This document shows positions 3,040-12,895 of a DNA stretch of 12,895 nucleotides, one piece after another. This stretch comes from Devosia sp. (GTDB lineage Bacteria > Pseudomonadota > Alphaproteobacteria > Rhizobiales > Devosiaceae). Numbering within the stretch: position 1 is the first letter of the stretch; each line of letters begins with the position of its first letter. The position numbers were made by a program, and so were the translations under genes. The DNA lies in contig JAEUMC010000719.1 of NCBI GenBank assembly GCA_016793415.1, positions 1 through 12,895 of the forward strand, written 5' to 3'. The notes beneath the pieces were generated by a model. It saw nothing but the letters and a program-made list of their open reading frames with translations. It was not told where the DNA came from and ran no database searches.

Positions 3040-3897
3040 ATGGCCAAGGTTCTGGTGACGGGCGGCAGCGGCAAGCTCGGGCGGGCAGTGCTGAAGGACC
3101 TGGTGACCAACGGCTATTCGGTGCTCAATGTCGACCAGACGTTGCCGAAGGATCCGATCTGCCCAACGGTGCGCATCGACCTCACCGATTTCGGCCAGGT
3201 GGCGCAGGCGATCCTCGGCGGCGTCGACGAGCGGCGCGGCCCGTTCGATGCGGTGGTGCATCTCGCCGCCATCCCGGCGCCGGGCCTGTTCGCCAACAGC
3301 CGCACCGTCGCGAACAATGTGCCCACCAGCTATAACGTGTTCGAGGCGTGCCGGCTCGCCGGGGTCAAGAACGTCGTGTTTGCCTCGAGCGAGACCGTGC
3401 TCGGCCTGCCCTTCGAAACGCCGCCGCCCTACGTGCCTGTCGACGAGGAGTATTTCCCGCGACCCGAGACGGCCTATTCGCTCGGCAAACTGCTCGACGA
3501 GACGATGGCGGCGCAGTTCTGCCGCTGGGATCCGGAGCTGAAAATCGTCGGATTGCGCTTCTCCAACGTCATGGATGTCGAAGACTACAAGGCATTCCCG
3601 GCCTTTGACGCCGACCCCAAGCTCAGGAAATGGAACCTCTGGGGCTATATCGATGCGCGCGACGGGGCGCAGGCGGTACGCCGCGGCATCGAGGCCGAGT
3701 TCAAGGGGTTCGAGGCCTTCATCATCGCCAACCAGGACACGGTAATGAGCCGCTCCAACATGTCGCTGATGGCGGAAGTGTTTCCCAAGGTGACGCACAA
3801 GCGCGAGCTCAGCCAGAACGGCACGCTGCTGTCGATCGACAAGGCGCGGCGCATGCTCGACTACAACCCGCAGCATAGCTGGCGGAACCACGTCTGA
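3040..3897 (+). CDS. NAD(P)-dependent epimerase/dehydratase (extended SDR)
   Basis: This 285-residue extended short-chain dehydrogenase/reductase acts on a sugar or sugar acid, probably nucleotide-linked or a free aldose/uronate. The N-terminal Rossmann motif is GGSGKLG (8-14). An acidic residue at the end of the second strand (Asp32, NVDQ) favours NAD over NADP. The motif HLAA is at 74-77, a catalytic Ser is in FASSET (116-117), and the YxxxK pair is Tyr146/Lys150 (AYSLGK). Length and layout resemble the uronate dehydrogenase / L-arabinose dehydrogenase-like branch, but the substrate cannot be read from sequence. The start at 3040 follows a strong GGGAGGA site; the frame extends 18 codons upstream without a signal. 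The stop overlaps the next ATG (TGATG), so both genes should be coupled in translation. Confidence 0.88.
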   Translation: MAKVLVTGGSGKLGRAVLKDLVTNGYSVLNVDQTLPKDPICPTVRIDLTDFGQVAQAILGGVDERRGPFDAVVHLAAIPAPGLFANSRTVANNVPTSYNVFEACRLAGVKNVVFASSETVLGLPFETPPPYVPVDEEYFPRPETAYSLGKLLDETMAAQFCRWDPELKIVGLRFSNVMDVEDYKAFPAFDADPKLRKWNLWGYIDARDGAQAVRRGIEAEFKGFEAFIIANQDTVMSRSNMSLMAEVFPKVTHKRELSQNGTLLSIDKARRMLDYNPQHSWRNHV

Positions 3898-4751
3898 TGG
3901 CCATCCGACTTGGTGGTCACGGCCTGCCGATCGGCAGCGACGACCCTTATGCCTTCGCCCGCGCGCATCGCGAGTTCGGCTATGGGGCGGCCTATGTGCC
4001 GGAGGTGAGGCTCGACGATCGCGACCGGCTGGTGGCGATCGAGCAGGCTTTTGCCGCAGCGAACGTGGTGCTGGCCGAGATCGGCATCTGGCGCAATCTG
4101 GTCTCGCCCGATGAGGCGGTGCGCAAGGCCAACCTCGCCTACGCCGTCGAGCGCCTCGCCATCGCCGATGCGGTCGGCGCCGGCTGCGCTGTCAGCTATA
4201 TCGGCTCGTTCCGCGCCGGCACCGACTACGCGCCCGCCGCCGAGAACATGGGGCCGGAAGCGTTCGACGCCTGCGTCGAGACCGTGCGCTATCTGCTCGA
4301 CACCGTGAAGCCGACCCGCGCGAAGTTCGCGCTCGAAATGATGCAGTATTCGCTGCCCGACAGCGTCGACAGCTATGTCGAACTGATCAATGCCATCGAC
4401 CGGCCGATGTTCGGGGCGCATTTCGACCCGGTGAACATCATCATGACGCCGCGGGTCTATTTCGATAACGGGGCGCTGATCCGAGAGTGTTTCGACAAGC
4501 TGGGCCACTGGGTGGTGTCGTGCCACGCCAAGGATATCAAGCTGCACCACCAGGCGGCCCTGCATCTCGACGAAGTGTAGATCGGCGAGGGCGTGCTCGA
4601 CTATCGCACATACCTCGGCGAACTGAACCGGCTGCCACGCGAGGTGCCGCTGATGCTCGAACATCTCAAGGGCGAAGAGTACGCGGTGGCGCGCGACCGT
4701 ATTTTCGCGGTCGGTGACGCCATAAGCGTCGATTTCGCGGTGCGCCCGTGA
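3897..4751 (+). pseudogene. Sugar phosphate isomerase/epimerase-like TIM barrel, interrupted by an in-frame amber codon
   Basis: The reading frame from ATG 3897 covers 284 codons to TGA at 4749-4751, but codon 228 (4578-4580) is TAG. The 227-residue upstream part matches the xylose isomerase-like TIM-barrel family (PF01261). Three of the usual four metal ligands are visible: Glu147 (KFALEMM), Asp177 (GAHFDPVN) and His210 (SCHAKDIK). The frame after the stop continues without shift as IGEGVLDYRTYLGELNRL and then PLMLEHL, where Glu255 is the expected fourth ligand. So the short product would lack a metal ligand and the last barrel strands, and is probably inactive. Without the stop the gene would be ordinary, 284 residues, and coupled to the epimerase. 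One base change (for example CAG to TAG) explains it; a sequencing error or stop read-through are alternatives. If read literally, the coding part is 3897-4580. Confidence 0.8.
4578..4580 (+). other. In-frame amber (TAG) inside the TIM-barrel gene
   Basis: The sequence around it reads GAC GAA GTG TAG ATC GGC GAG. Family members usually have an acidic-hydrophobic stretch followed by a GEG or GQG turn here, so translation on both sides is normal. No frameshift or deletion is seen. No hairpin marking a selenocysteine or programmed read-through site is evident just downstream. Confidence 0.9.
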
Positions 4752-4836: not shown

Positions 4837-5949
4837 TTGGGCGCCTACATCCTGAGACGCCTGCTGCTGATGATCCCGACGCTGCTCGGGATCATGATCG
4901 TCTCCTTCATCATCGTGCAGTTCGCGCCGGGCGGCCCGGTTGAGCAGGTCATCGCGCAGATGTCCGGGCAGAACATCAGCTCGACCGAGCGCATCACCGG
5001 CAGCCAGCAGGGCGACTTCGCCGGCCAGGAAACCGGGAAGGCCAGAGACACGGCCGACGTCAACTCCACCTATCGCGGGGCACGCGGGCTTCGCCCGGAA
5101 ATCCTCGAGCGGATCGAGAAGCAGTTCGGCTTCGACAAGCCGCCGGTGGAGCGCTTTTTCACCATGATGTGGAACTACCTGCGCTTCGATTTCGGCAACA
5201 GCTACTTCCGTGACATCTCGGTGGTCGACCTGATCAAGGAGAAGCTGCCGGTCTCGATCACGCTGGGGCTGTGGATGACGCTGCTCGGCTATGGCGTGTC
5301 GATCCCGCTCGGCATCGCCAAGGCGCTGCGCGACGGCTCGCGCTTCGACATCTGGACCTCGTCGATCGTCATCATCGGCTACGCGCTGCCCGGTTTCCTC
5401 ATCGCCGTGCTGCTGATCGTGTTGTTCGCCGGCGGCAGCTTCTGGAACATCTTCCCGCTGCGCGGCCTGGTGTCGGAGAATTTCGCGAGCCTGCCCTGGT
5501 ACAGCCAGGTGCTCGACTACCTCTGGCACATCACGTTGCCGATCATTGCGATGGCGGTCGGCGGCTTCGCCACGGTGACGCTGCTCACCAAGAACTCGTT
5601 CCTCGAGGAAATCCGCAAGCAGTATGTCACTACCGCGCGCGCCAAGGGGCTCAACGACCGGCAGGTGCTGTACCGGCATGTGTTCCGCAACGCCATGCTG
5701 CTGGTCATTGCCAGCTTCCCGGCGGCATTCATCTCGGCATTCTTTGGAGGCTCGCTGCTGATCGAGACGATCTTCTCGCTCGATGGCCTCGGTCTGCTCG
5801 GCTTCCAGTCGGTGCTCAACCGCGACTACTCGGTGGTATTCGCCACACTCTACGTCTTCTCGTTGCTCGGCCTCATCATCGGGCTCGTCTCCGACCTCAT
5901 GTACATGTGGATCGATCCGCGCATCGATTTCGAAAGTCGGGAAGTCTGA
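4837..5949 (+). CDS. yejB: Oligopeptide / microcin C-type ABC transporter permease YejB
   Basis: This 370-residue inner-membrane permease pairs with YejE to form the channel of the Yej importer. The sequence closely follows E. coli YejB from its first residues: [24 protein letters not shown] forms the first membrane segment, then [34 protein letters not shown] (98-122) follows a soluble loop (about 45-90). The binding-protein-dependent permease domain spans about 135-360. The coupling-helix EAA-type motif is [23 protein letters not shown] (266-288). The protein ends [11 protein letters not shown]. The start is TTG at 4837, preceded by GGAG six bases upstream; it gives exactly the conserved MGAY start. 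The stop overlaps the yejE ATG (TGATG). Nothing suggests damage. Confidence 0.95.
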
Positions 5950-7123
5950 TGCACGCGACCCTCACGGGCTTCCGCTCTCCCCTTCTCACCTTTGCGCCTG
6001 CCGACCAGGCCCGCTCGGCGCCGCTGCTGTCACCGATCAATCAGCGTCGGCTCAAGGTGTTCAACGCCAATCGGCGGGGGGTGTGGTCGCTGTGGATCTT
6101 CCTCGTCCTGTTCATTCTCACCATGTTCGCCGAGCTGATCGCCAACGATCGGCCGCTGGTGGTGAGCTACAAGGGCGAGACGCTGTTTCCGGTGGTCATC
6201 TCCTATCCTGAAAGCAAGTTCGGCGGCTTCCTCGCTGAAACGATCTATCGTGACCCCTTCATCGCCGACGAGATCAACGCCAATGGCTGGATGGTCTGGC
6301 CGCCGATCCGCTATTCCTTCGGTACGGTCGATGAGTCCCTCAGCGGCCCTGCTCCATCCAAGCCGTCCTGGCTGCAGACCATCGAGGAGCGTTGCGCCGC
6401 CTATCCGGCCGGCGTTGCCGATCCGTCCTGCACCATCGGCAACTTCCACTGGCTCGGGACCGACGACCAGGGCCGGGACGTGCTGGCGCGGTTGATCTAC
6501 GGCTTCCGCATCTCGGTGCTGTTCGGCCTCGTTCTCACCGTGCTTTCGTCGATCATCGGCATCGGCGCCGGGGCCCTGCAGGGGTATCTCGGCGGCTGGG
6601 TCGACCTGATCGCCCAGCGCGTCATCGAAGTATGGAGCTCGGTCCCCTCGCTGTACCTGCTGCTGATCATCTCCAGCATCATCGCGCCCAGCTTCTGGGT
6701 ACTGCTCGGCATCCTCTTGCTGTTCTCGTGGACGGCGCTGGTCGGCATCGTGCGGGCCGAGTTCCTGCGGGCCCGCAACTTCGAATACGTCGCTGCCGCC
6801 CGGGCGCTCGGCGTCTCGAACTTCAAGATCATGATCGGGCACCTGTTGCCCAATGCGATGGTTGCGACACTCACCTTCATGCCGTTCATCCTTGCCGGTT
6901 CGGTCACCACGCTGACGGCCCTCGACTTCCTCGGCTTCGGACTGCCGGTCGGCTCGCCGTCGCTGGGCGAGCTCTTGGCGCAGGGCAAGGACAACCTCTC
7001 CGCCTGGTGGCTCGGCATCACCGGCTTCTTTACCGTGTCGCTGATCCTCACCCTGCTGGTCTTCATCGGCGAAGGGGTGCGCGACGCGTTCGACCCGCGC
7101 AAGACCTTCGCGGGAACACGCTC

Positions 7124-7127
<4 letters not shown>
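5949..7127 (+). CDS. yejE: Oligopeptide / microcin C-type ABC transporter permease YejE
   Basis: This 392-residue second permease subunit of the Yej importer is about 50 residues longer than E. coli YejE. It has a 28-residue N-terminal extension before the conserved SPINQRRLKVFNANRRGVWSLWIF (28-51). It also has a periplasmic insertion around 130-166 with Cys149 and Cys161 just before the conserved WLGTDDQGRDVLARLIYG (168-185). The permease domain follows, with the EAA-type motif AARALGVSNFKIMIGHLLPNAM (283-304) and the ending GEGVRDAFDPRKTF. The start ATG overlaps the yejB stop by one base. The frame is open far upstream inside yejB, but that part is out-of-frame shadow. The last four bases overlap yejF (ATGA), so translation of B, E and F is coupled. 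Confidence 0.94.
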
Positions 7128-8749
<1,622 letters not shown>

Positions 8750-8754
8750 AAGTT

Positions 8755-8782
8755 TTGACGCAATCGCACCTGACGCTAAGCT
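8755..8782 (+). promoter_or_regulatory. Candidate promoter of yejA
   Basis: TTGACG (8755-8760, five of six matches to the -35 consensus) precedes GCTAAGCT (8775-8782), with the TAAGCT core 16 bp after the -35 box. The octamer begins 42 bp upstream of the ATG at 8817. It lies just after the yejF stop, in the only gap of the yej group. An independent promoter would let the binding protein be made in excess over the membrane complex, as is usual for such importers. Confidence 0.5.
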
Positions 8783-8816
8783 CCGACAACACGTTCTCCC
8801 CCGAATGGAGGCCCTC

Positions 8817-10661
8817 ATGCGCATGAAGCTCGTCGCCCTCGCCCTGGCTGCCCTCGTCTCGGTCAGCCCCGCCGTCGCCCAGGACAAGGTCTGGCACCAC
8901 GCTGGATCGCTGATCGGCGAGCCGAAATATCCCGAGGGTTTTCAGAAGTTCGACTATGTGAACGCGGATGCGCCGGTAGGGGGCGTGGTGCGGCTGAGCT
9001 CGATGGGCGGCTTCGATACCTTCAACCCGATCCTGCCGCAGGGCGAACCGGCCGACGGCATCGGGCTGGTGTTCGAAACACTGACCACGCCGTCGCTCGA
9101 CGAGAACTCCACCCAGTACGGCAATCTTGCCGAGGCCTTCAGCTACCCGGACGATTTCTCCTCGGTTACCTTCCGGATGAACCCGCGCGCCAAATGGGCC
9201 GACGGCGAGCCGGTCAAGGCCGAGGACGTGGTCTGGACCTTCAACAAGGTGAAGGAACTGAACCCCAGCCAGGCGAACTACTACGCCAATGTCGTCAAGG
9301 CCGAAGTCACCGCGCCCGGCGAAGTCACCTTCAGCTTCGACCAGACCGGCAACCGCGAGCTGCCGCATATCATGGGCCAGCTGATCGTCTTGCCGCAGCA
9401 CTGGTGGGAGGGCACCGGGCCCGACGGCAAGCCGCGCGACATCGGCCGCTCCACGCTCGAGCCGCCAATGGGCTCGGGGCCCTACAAGCTCGCCAGCTTT
9501 TCAGCCGGCACCTCAATCACCTACGAGCGCGACCCCAACTACTGGGGTCTGAAGGAGCCCTTCAACATCGGCCAGAACAATTTTGCCGGGATCAAGTACG
9601 AGTATTTCCGCGACACCACCGCCGAATTCGAAGGCTTCAAGGGCGACGCCTTCGACTGGTGGGACGAGAACCTGGCACTGCGCTGGCAGAACGACTACAC
9701 CTTCCCCGCGGTCACCGAGGGCAAGGTGATCAAGGAGCTGTTCGAGAACGCCTATCGCGGCTCGGGCATCCTGGTCGGGTTCGTTCCGAACCTCAGGAAA
9801 CCTCTGTTCCAGAACGAAGCGCTGCGTGAGGCGATGCTCTATGCCTTCGACTTCGAGGAACTCGATAAGCTCCGCTTCTTCGGCCAGTACGATCGCATCA
9901 ACTCGTACTTCTATGGCACCGAATTCGCCTCGTCCGGCTTGCCGCAGGGCGAGGAGCTCGAGATCCTCAACTCGGTGAAGGATCTGGTTCCGGCCTCGGT
10001 GTTCACCACCGAGTACAAGAACCCGGTCAACGGCGATACGACCAAGCTCCGCCAGAGCCTTCGTACCGCCAACGAAATCCTGACCAAGGCCGGTTACACG
10101 CTCAACGGCAACCAGTTGATCGATCCGAACGGAACCCCGGTGACGTTCGAGATCCTGCTCAATGGCCCGACCATCGAACCGATCGCCACGGCGTTCCAGA
10201 CCAACCTCAAGCGGCTCGGCATCAACGCCACGATCCGCTCGGTGGATTCCCCACAATATATCGAGCGGGCGCAGAACCGCGACTACGACATGATCTACAC
10301 CGGCTGGGTGCAGTCGCTCTCGCCTGGCAACGAGCAGCGTGATTTCTGGGGCTCGACCTCGGCGGCGCAGAACGACAGCCGCAACTATGGCGGGATTTCC
10401 GACAAGGGCGTCGATGCGCTGATCGACAAGATCGTCTTCGCCGACGATCGCGAGACGCTGATCGCCGCCACCCGAGCGCTCGACCGGGTGCTGCTGGCGC
10501 ACCACTACACCGTGCCCACCTACACGCTGCGCAAATCCCGCATCGCCCGCTGGGACCGCTTCAGCCACCCCGACGAGTTGCCCGAGTTCTCGATCGGCTT
10601 CCCGACAGTGTGGTGGTACGACGAAGCCAAGGCAGCCAAGACCGGCGCGGCGAAGAACTAG
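8817..10661 (+). CDS. yejA: Periplasmic oligopeptide-binding protein YejA
   Basis: This 614-residue solute-binding protein (SBP_bac_5 family) delivers oligopeptides to YejBEF. It has a signal peptide MRMKLVALALAALVSVSPAVA (1-21) and no lipobox cysteine, so it is a soluble periplasmic protein. Family landmarks follow E. coli YejA closely: GEPKYPEGFQKFDYVNADAP near the N-terminus, FNPRAKWADGEPVKAEDVVWTF-like text (here RMNPRAKWADG), PPMGSGPYKL, RDPNYWG, then ALDRVLLAHHYTVPTY and IGFPTVWWYDEAKAAK at the end. Length equals that of E. coli YejA within a few residues. I use the ATG at 8817 because GGAGG (8807-8811) is five bases upstream; the ATG at 8805 overlaps that site. Having the gene last (B-E-F-A) differs from the enterobacterial order A-B-E-F. 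A repeat with strong hairpins follows the stop. Confidence 0.94.
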   Translation: MRMKLVALALAALVSVSPAVAQDKVWHHAGSLIGEPKYPEGFQKFDYVNADAPVGGVVRLSSMGGFDTFNPILPQGEPADGIGLVFETLTTPSLDENSTQYGNLAEAFSYPDDFSSVTFRMNPRAKWADGEPVKAEDVVWTFNKVKELNPSQANYYANVVKAEVTAPGEVTFSFDQTGNRELPHIMGQLIVLPQHWWEGTGPDGKPRDIGRSTLEPPMGSGPYKLASFSAGTSITYERDPNYWGLKEPFNIGQNNFAGIKYEYFRDTTAEFEGFKGDAFDWWDENLALRWQNDYTFPAVTEGKVIKELFENAYRGSGILVGFVPNLRKPLFQNEALREAMLYAFDFEELDKLRFFGQYDRINSYFYGTEFASSGLPQGEELEILNSVKDLVPASVFTTEYKNPVNGDTTKLRQSLRTANEILTKAGYTLNGNQLIDPNGTPVTFEILLNGPTIEPIATAFQTNLKRLGINATIRSVDSPQYIERAQNRDYDMIYTGWVQSLSPGNEQRDFWGSTSAAQNDSRNYGGISDKGVDALIDKIVFADDRETLIAATRALDRVLLAHHYTVPTYTLRKSRIARWDRFSHPDELPEFSIGFPTVWWYDEAKAAKTGAAKN

Positions 10662-10695: not shown

Positions 10696-10822
10696 CCTTG
10701 ATCCCTCCCCACAAGGGGGAGGGAGACGCCTACTGAGACCCCGGTTTTCGCTCTCCCTCCCCTTGATGGGGAGGGCAGCGCAGCTTGGCGGCGTCGCCGC
10801 CTAGCGTAGCTGGGTGGGGTGG
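10688..10822 (+). repeat. Palindromic intergenic repeat, copy 1
   Basis: This 135-bp element is a direct copy of that at 12549-12678. It begins ACCCCCACCCTTGATCCC and ends AGCTGGGTGGGGTGG, so the ends are imperfect inverted repeats (CCCCACCC against GGGTGGGG). Inside are two hairpins with the same stem, CCCTCCCC/GGGGAGGG, separated by a variable spacer of about 24 bp. A third hairpin follows (GGCGGC/GCCGCC, with outer CAGCT/AGCTG). The size, structure and lack of coding content fit a REP/MITE-like dispersed element of Hyphomicrobiales. Read as protein it gives a stretch like TLDPSPQGGG, familiar from spurious annotations. It lies between convergent yejA and hutU and may act as a transcription end. 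Confidence 0.85.
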
Positions 10823-10842: not shown

Positions 10843-12510
10843 TCAGCTTCCCCGCAGATCGAACCAGCCGATCCCCTTGCTCGCCGCCTCGTCCACAGCC
10901 TCGTCATACCCGGCATCGGCATAGCGCATCACGCCGAGCGAGGTGTCGTTGGTCAGTGCATGTGACAGCCGCTCGTCCGCCGCCGCCGTCCCATCTGCGA
11001 CCAGCGTCACGCCGGCCGAGGTCATGTAGCCGGCATAGCCGCCGCCACCCGAGTGGATCACCACCAGGTCGGCCATCGAGGCGGTGAGCAGCATCGCATC
11101 CAGCAGCGGCCAATCGGCGATGGCGTCGGAGCCATCCTTCATGTTCTCGGTCATGATGTTGGGGTGCGTCATGGCGCCGGCATCGAGATGGTCGCGCGAG
11201 AACGCCACCGGCCCCTTGAGCTCGCCATCCCGCACCAGCGCGTTCACCGCCAATGCCAGTGCCGTCCGTTCGCCGTGACCCAGCCAGGCGATGCGCGCCG
11301 GCAGACCTTCGAACGGCACGTATTGCCGCGCCAGCCGGATCCAGTTGGTGACGATCTTGTTGTCCGGGAACATCTCCAGCACCAGATCGTCGATCCGTGC
11401 GATATCGGAGGCTTCGCCGGACAGCGCCATCCAGCGGAACGGCCCGATGGCGCGGGCGAATAGCGGGCGGAGATACGCCTCGGTGAAAATCGGGATATCG
11501 AAGGCGTTTTCGACCCCGGCCTGCCTGGCCTGGGTGCGGATCAGGTTGCCGTTGTCGAACACTTCCGAACCGGCGGCCTGGAACCCCAGCATGGCCCGCA
11601 CGTGGTCAGCGATCGAGGCGCGGCTCGCCGCCATCAACTGCCCCTGGCCGTCGACGCGCAGCCGGCGCACTTCATCGAGGCTCATGCCTTTGGGCACATA
11701 GCCGTAGACGAGATCATGCGCGCTGGTCTGGTCGGTGACGATATCGGGGATGATCCCCCGCTTGAGGATTTCCGGATAGACCTCGGCGGCATTGGCGACC
11801 AGCCCCACCGACAGCGCCCGCCTGTCGCGCACGGCGGCGGCGATCATGTCGAGCGCGGTATCGAGGTCGGGCGCGATTTCCTGGAGATAGCCGATTTCCC
11901 TGCGCCGCTCGGCCCGTTGTGGATCGACATCGACGTCGAGGATCGCGGCACCCGCCATCCGTCCGGCGAGCGGCTGCGCCCCGCCCATGCCGCCCATGCC
12001 GGCGGTCAGAATGAAGCGCCCGGCGAGCGAACCGCCGAAGCGCTTCTCGGCGATGCGCATGAAGATCTCGTAGGTGCCCTGGATGACGCCCTGGCTGCCG
12101 ATATACTGCCACGCCCCGGCGGTGAGCCCGCCCCAGGCGATCAAGCCCTTCTTCTCGAGCTCATAAAACACCTCGGCCCTGGCCCATTGCCCGACGATGT
12201 TGCAGTTCGCCATGATCACCAGCGGCGCCTGCGCATGGGTCTTCAACAGCCCAATCGGCTTGCCCGACTGGATGACCAGTGTCTGGTCCTCATCCATCGT
12301 GGTCAGCGTCTCGACGATCTGCCGATGCGCCGCCCAGTTGCGCGCCGCCTTGCCGAGTGCGGCATAGACGATCAGCTTTTCGGGGTCCTCGCCGACCGCC
12401 AGCACATTCTCGAGCAGCCGCAGCAGTGCCTCCTGCCGCCAGCCTTTGGCGCGCAGGGTCGGACCGGAGGGGATGGGGAAATTGGGGTGGCGGGGATTGG
12501 GTTTTGGCAT
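10843..12510 (-). CDS. hutU: Urocanate hydratase family protein with altered active-site cysteines
   Basis: This 555-residue cytoplasmic NAD+-dependent protein has the length and order of urocanase, which hydrates urocanate to imidazolone propionate in histidine breakdown. Conserved parts are YIGSQGVIQGTYE (136-148), the NAD-binding TAGMGGMGGAQPLAG (169-183), VTDQTSAHD (258-266), IGPFRWMALSGE (355-366), RDHLDAG (439-445), DGSDAIADWPLL (459-470) and DGT...LTND..LGVMRYADAGYD. Differences from typical HutU: Ala408 in ARIAWLG where the family has Cys (P. putida Cys410); Ala352 in RPLFARAIGPF where Cys is usual; LVYGYVPKG for PLNGYLPAG; and HSGGGGYAGYMTSAG for HHGGGVGMGFSQHSG. It may be a divergent paralogue acting on a modified urocanate, or a weakened enzyme. 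No hutH, hutI or hutG is visible. The ATG fits the family N-terminus but has no clear ribosome binding site. The symbol marks the family only. Confidence 0.88.
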   Translation of the reverse strand: MPKPNPRHPNFPIPSGPTLRAKGWRQEALLRLLENVLAVGEDPEKLIVYAALGKAARNWAAHRQIVETLTTMDEDQTLVIQSGKPIGLLKTHAQAPLVIMANCNIVGQWARAEVFYELEKKGLIAWGGLTAGAWQYIGSQGVIQGTYEIFMRIAEKRFGGSLAGRFILTAGMGGMGGAQPLAGRMAGAAILDVDVDPQRAERRREIGYLQEIAPDLDTALDMIAAAVRDRRALSVGLVANAAEVYPEILKRGIIPDIVTDQTSAHDLVYGYVPKGMSLDEVRRLRVDGQGQLMAASRASIADHVRAMLGFQAAGSEVFDNGNLIRTQARQAGVENAFDIPIFTEAYLRPLFARAIGPFRWMALSGEASDIARIDDLVLEMFPDNKIVTNWIRLARQYVPFEGLPARIAWLGHGERTALALAVNALVRDGELKGPVAFSRDHLDAGAMTHPNIMTENMKDGSDAIADWPLLDAMLLTASMADLVVIHSGGGGYAGYMTSAGVTLVADGTAAADERLSHALTNDTSLGVMRYADAGYDEAVDEAASKGIGWFDLRGS

Positions 12511-12548: not shown

Positions 12549-12678
12549 ACCCCCACCCTTGATCCCTCCCCACAAGGGGGAGGGAGACGGTACCACAAGC
12601 GCCGCAGTCTCCCTCCCCTTGATGGGGAGGGTAGCGCAGCTTGGCCGCCCCGCGGCCTAGCGAAGCTGGGTGGGGTGG
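12549..12678 (+). repeat. Palindromic intergenic repeat, copy 2
   Basis: This 130-bp element has the same orientation and parts as the copy at 10688-10822: ACCCCCACCC start, two CCCTCCCC/GGGGAGGG hairpins, a third hairpin and a GGGTGGGGTGG end. The spacer between the first two hairpins differs in sequence and length. The third hairpin has stem GGCCGC/GCGGCC where copy 1 has GGCGGC/GCCGCC; the G-C pair is swapped to C-G, keeping the fold. Its outer stem CAGCTT/AAGCTG is perfect here. It lies just upstream of hutU and just after the partial gene at 12695. Confidence 0.85.
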
Positions 12679-12694: not shown

Positions 12695-12895
12695 CTAAGC
12701 CCAGCCCGTCCGGGCCTTCTTCTTCCGCTTGACGCCCTCGAGCGCGTATTTCGCCAGCTCGATCCCCATCGCCTTTTCGACCGGCGGATACACAGCCGGG
12801 TCGATCACCGAGGTGGAGAGCGGGATCACCTTCTTGGGGACGTGCAGGACGAAGACGAACATGCCTTCGCGCATCTGCCCGGCGCTCAGCGGCTG
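12695..12895 (-). CDS. C-terminal end of a protein of unknown function
   Basis: The gene enters from the right edge; 66 codons and a TAG stop are visible. The fragment includes MREGMFVFVLHVPKKVIPL, STSVIDPAVYPPVEKAMGI and ELAKYALEG, and ends in a basic tail VKRKKKARTGWA. Codon use is like the neighbours and the frame is clean. I do not recognise the family with confidence. A G-x-x-V-x-V-x-x-x-P pattern near the C-terminus is faintly like the end of DUF917 (S-methyl-thiohydantoin desulfurase-type) proteins, but that is weak. It is on the same strand as and upstream of hutU, separated by 184 bp that contain repeat copy 2. Confidence 0.65.
   Translation of the reverse strand, partial: QPLSAGQMREGMFVFVLHVPKKVIPLSTSVIDPAVYPPVEKAMGIELAKYALEGVKRKKKARTGWA

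Follow-up and report, generated by a model that had tools for sequence, protein, structure and literature searches.

A putative thiourocanate hydratase gene in a probable ergothioneine-degradation operon of a Devosia-like alphaproteobacterium

The DNA analysed here (the window) is the whole 12,895-nucleotide stretch of contig JAEUMC010000719.1 from the Devosia sp. assembly GCA_016793415.1 (contig C349:1-12895 in our numbering). It carries an intact urocanase-family gene of 555 codons on the minus strand, running from 12510 to 10843. Comparison of its sequence and setting indicates that the product is very probably a thiourocanate hydratase, encoded in an operon of a Devosia-like alphaproteobacterium for degradation of the antioxidant ergothioneine, a capacity of some soil bacteria. 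The enzyme class itself is previously described: the structure of a relative has been solved, and a curated family model is available. The assignment would move the gene from histidine to ergothioneine breakdown, and the operon is present in many Devosia and Rhizobiaceae genomes.

Table 1. Positions of features in the window.
Feature	Position	Strand	Remarks
Thiourocanate hydratase gene (putative)	10843..12510	minus	555 aa, full length, ATG to stop
End of thiohydantoin desulfurase gene	12695..12895	minus	last 66 codons and stop; cut by window end; 92% identity to residues 310-375 of the desulfurase in locus L003
Paired palindromes	10703-10775		flank the hydratase gene
Paired palindromes	12564-12631		flank the hydratase gene; between desulfurase and hydratase genes
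Oligopeptide-type ABC genes	4837-10661	opposite to hydratase gene	point towards hydratase gene
TIM-barrel gene	3897-4580	opposite to hydratase gene	227 open codons
Small protein gene	1959-2363	minus	134 aa
Small protein gene	2425-2826	minus	133 aa

Assignment of the protein within the urocanase family

To place the protein within its family, it was scored against curated NCBIfam models. On NF058530 (thiourocanate hydratase) it reached 1036.6 bits, passing the equivalog cut-off of 930, and on NF058531 (S-methyl thiourocanate hydratase) it failed with 744.7 bits against a cut-off of 880. The mirror image was obtained with a protein encoded on an Agrobacterium plasmid, which passed NF058531 with 975.8 and failed NF058530 with 725.3. 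The model TIGR01228 (hutU, cut-off 375) cannot separate these types, because the S-methyl-type protein scores 694.6 and the protein of the window 692.5, which is also a pass.

The top sequence match in the PDB was 7NED, which lay 188 bits ahead of the next entry and carries the title thiourocanate hydratase. It comes from Paenibacillus sp. Soil724D2, a member of a different phylum from the host. The two proteins are 67% identical over 535 aligned residues, superpose with a TM-score of 0.93 and have AHDLVYGYVP, PLFARAIGPF and HSGGGGYAGYMTSAG in common. Identity to two classical urocanases was 51% and 52%, the lower value being that for HutU of Pseudomonas putida (1W1U, 1UWK). When 60 rows were placed in a tree, a branch with support of 100/100 separated 28 clade rows and 7NED from 29 HutU rows together with 1W1U and 1X87. 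The protein of the window was placed on the 7NED side, outside the HutU clade, with the P. putida enzyme on the opposite side.

The original prediction had reported a urocanase-family enzyme that lacks two usual cysteines, and its coordinates, residues and rewritten motifs were all found in the protein, the strand of the gene being minus. Ala352 lies in PLFARAIGPF and Ala408 in ARIAWLG; the segments AHDLVYGYVPKG and HSGGGGYAGYMTSAG are present and RDHLDAG is retained. The alignment to HutU on which this reading stood proved correct: the urocanases of P. putida (1W1U) and Bacillus subtilis (2FKN) both have Cys/Cys at the aligned positions. The second cysteine is residue 411 in the deposited 1W1U chain and presumably is the Cys410 named there, if the initiator methionine is uncounted; among the papers listed in a literature search for this numbering and the claimed mutagenesis effect, none dealt with urocanase Cys410.

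The two positions were followed through 89 distinct clade rows (87 from the related loci described below, 7NED and the query, that is, the protein of the window) and 31 HutU rows (29 from the loci, with the solved urocanases 1W1U and 1X87). Alanine occupied position 352 in 86 of the 89 clade rows, the exceptions being Cys in L008, Val in L012 and Gly in L065, and position 408 in 88 of them, 7NED having Gly. Cysteine was present at both positions in all 31 HutU rows. Cys103, Leu267, Asn320, Ser487, Gly491 and Tyr492 were identical in 89/89 clade rows. In all, 70 alignment columns differed between clade and HutU at 95% or more within each group, a count made on 90 clade rows with the query entered twice; a chance pair of changes is ruled out by this number of separating columns. 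Membership of the clade was set at 60% identity or more to the query. Observed identities were 49-53% or 79-100% with nothing between, a gap from which intermediate forms may be missing, since the loci were the nearest 80 of 352. As far as the aligned sequences tell, the two replacements mark a clade and are the usual state of a known group, and no peculiarity of one protein. Together with Leu267, Asn320 and Ser487, the two cysteine positions provide an easy check on urocanate hydratase labels.

Gene order in related loci and in the host genome

By title, these 80 loci came from Devosia, Rhizobiaceae genera or Rhizobiales, with the exception of one metagenome-assembled genome (L040) titled Alphaproteobacteria only. 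The order ergothionase-like lyase, ErtD, ErtE, desulfurase and hydratase, on one strand and with the hydratase gene last, was found in 77 of them. Two of the three exceptions had too little upstream sequence (L010 and L043), and in L060 no match covering more than half of ErtD was obtained. In locus L003, ErtD, ErtE and the desulfurase passed NF058538, NF058540 and NF058529, respectively. The lyase of this locus had ergothionase 6S7J as its best PDB match, with 178.8 bits against 154.5 for histidine ammonia-lyase, and it scored well under the hutH cut-off (217.6 vs 539).

The same genes were found in the genome of the window. On contig C560, a partial ErtD is followed by ErtE and by a desulfurase gene running to the contig end, and the three pass the same NCBIfam cut-offs as their counterparts in L003. 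The last 150 bases of C560 match the first 150 of the minus strand of the window at 98.7%; the desulfurase gene thus spans C560 and the window. A separate contig, C757, has the ergothionase-like lyase, adjoined by a gene for an OsmF-type binding protein. Two further, more distant desulfurase relatives lie adjacent to each other elsewhere in this genome (G000 C75:3820-5924; 27% and 25% identity).

A second hutU with its companion genes had been suggested as something to look for. Contig C762 carries hutG, hutH and hutI, each above its cut-off, and a cut hutU piece of about 199 residues, which stops short of both cysteine positions and scores 361.6 on the hutU model (just below the cut-off of 375), 264.6 on the S-methyl model and 241.8 on the thiourocanate model. 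The Ala-Ser-Gly triad is present in HutH of this genome and absent from the lyase on C757. From the hut genes on C762 and this difference in the triad, the breakdown of histidine and that of ergothioneine appear to be encoded by distinct sets of genes within one genome. Among 41 genomes (the host and 40 relatives), 10 passed NF058530, and 5 of these 10 were without a second urocanase match.

Alternative readings of the gene

It is very unlikely that the gene encodes a classical HutU for histidine breakdown, still acting on urocanate but missing two cysteines. Such a reading would fit the pass on the hutU model, the PDB title of 7NED, according to which that protein is able to hold urocanate, and current labels: all 49 named rows among 120 listed proteins, near-identical to 85%-identical, are called urocanate hydratase (counted by eye). 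However, the protein lies across the fully supported branch from HutU, both cysteines are kept in every HutU row, and the gene is outside the hut operon, whose hutH, hutI, hutG and part of hutU are together on C762. The idea of a decayed or non-catalytic urocanase has the two cysteines and several motif residues unlike HutU in its favour and is the least likely of all. The frame is open throughout, all three urocanase Pfam domains are matched across almost the entire length and RDHLDAG is retained, which rules decay out in agreement with the original prediction; moreover, almost the same residues are fixed over the 89 clade rows and the gene order is kept in nearly all loci.

The original prediction had favoured a functional paralogue with another substrate, naming S-methyl-thiourocanate and N-methylated urocanates as candidates. 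The first part held, as the protein looks like a functional paralogue in a genome with a separate hut cluster, and thiourocanate is its most likely substrate. No result, from analyses not aimed at them, pointed to N-methylated urocanates. For S-methyl-thiourocanate the chance is slighter than for classical HutU. A solved urocanase relative of that type does exist according to the PDB titles (8Q9U/8Q9V, Variovorax sp. RA8); it shares the fold (TM 0.92), the urocanase family and a related pathway with the protein of the window, and a cluster with an S-methyl-type protein also has relatives of the desulfurase, ErtD and ErtE. Yet 8Q9U/8Q9V is only 51-52% identical to our protein, keeps PLFC with Gly at the other position and belongs to the NCBIfam model that our protein failed. 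The Agrobacterium protein that passed this model likewise has Cys/Gly and is without part of the HSGGGGYAGYM segment; the comparison sample for the S-methyl type consisted of this one full-length protein (L146) and a stretch of 8Q9U/8Q9V. The desulfurase of the host also speaks against an S-methyl substrate, as it passed the thiohydantoin model with 581.3 (cut-off 440) and failed the S-methyl model with 277.5 (cut-off 450). No protein above the NF058531 cut-off was found across 299 genomes of the phylum.

The Agrobacterium protein is encoded on the Agrobacterium tumefaciens plasmid pAt15955 (L146:6025-18708), which is typed conjugative. There, the S-methyl-thiourocanate hydratase is accompanied by an S-methyl-thiohydantoin desulfurase, ErtD and ErtE, and the cluster also encodes a glutathione transferase together with a molybdopterin S/N-oxide reductase, two enzymes whose presence may suggest that an oxidised or methylated ergothioneine enters the pathway.

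Proposed pathway and possible ergothioneine import

In the established chemistry of urocanases, the Rossmann domain binds NAD+, which adds to the ring, and the conjugated system is hydrated. Pathway chemistry beyond the NCBIfam and PDB names is taken here as general background. In the proposed pathway, ergothionase would release trimethylamine from ergothioneine and leave thiourocanate. The thiourocanate hydratase, by analogy with urocanase and with 7NED, would use bound NAD+ as the electrophile on the ring and add water, giving thiohydantoin propionate. Sulfur would next be removed by the thiohydantoin desulfurase, hydantoin-5-propionate would be opened by ErtD, and N-carbamoyl-L-glutamate would be hydrolysed by ErtE; the naming of these reactions follows the NCBIfam descriptions of the neighbour genes. 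The missing cysteines and the changed segments are interpreted as an adjustment to the substrate, whose ring carries a 2-thione: a pocket shaped for the 2-thio ring would be marked by the Ala pair, Leu267/Tyr269, Asn320 and the altered HSGGGGYAGYM segment, each with a presumed part in it. Cleavage of ergothioneine by ergothionase into trimethylamine and thiourocanic acid is described in a passage of PMC13405746, which also gives another fate of thiourocanate, through a desulfhydrase in gut anaerobes. In the literature searched, the phrase 'thiourocanate hydratase' was not found among the matches listed.

Of the 80 loci, 11 encode an OsmF-type ABC importer inside the operon, and these include the Devosia-type loci (e.g. 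L003:1866-5907); in the genome of the window its binding protein was identified on C757 (L125:1200-2108), beside the ergothionase-like gene. The importer in the Devosia-type operon is the part that may be new. The binding protein passes NF049931 OsmF, which is modelled as a glycine betaine system, with 501 against a cut-off of 400, and its nearest PDB matches are glycine betaine or OsmF proteins (down to 2e-145). The ergothioneine-binding EgtUC gave 1.6e-28, a value that choline and nicotine sensors equalled or bettered. It is thus the position of the genes that speaks for ergothioneine import. From this position, the OsmF-type system is tentatively suggested to be an unrecognised ergothioneine importer; going further, the clade's Ala/Ala pocket could be a sub-type tuned unlike the Ala/Gly enzyme of Paenibacillus, e.g. 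to the selenium analogue. This reading is possible, with somewhat less than an even chance. Full-text literature for ergothioneine together with OsmF returned only a paper on oral cancer nutrition.

Other features of the window

The other genes of the window (oligopeptide-type ABC genes, epimerase, TIM barrel and asparaginase II) were considered as parts of the system and rejected, being rare in the 80 loci. At E 1e-30 over more than half of the length, 3 loci had the solute-binding protein, 6 the epimerase, 3 the TIM barrel and 4 the asparaginase II; since no locus extended beyond 10 kb on either side, the asparaginase count may be too low, as may the other counts where contigs are short. The ABC, epimerase and TIM-barrel genes lie on the opposite strand and point towards the hydratase gene. 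The two small proteins are adjacent, belong to one cluster and gave no Pfam match.

The hydratase gene is flanked by paired palindromes, CCCTCCCC-N5-GGGGAGGG, whose members are 52 and 47 bases apart from start to start. The genome contains 171 exact copies of the palindromes and 0 of a reversed control, and at least one is present in 13 of the 80 related loci. They look like a REP-type element; a Y1 transposase (PF01797) was matched nowhere in the genome of the window, which is 82.5% complete. The TIM-barrel gene corresponds to an 855-base frame in L003, and a frame change or faulty assembly may have cut short the copy in the window.
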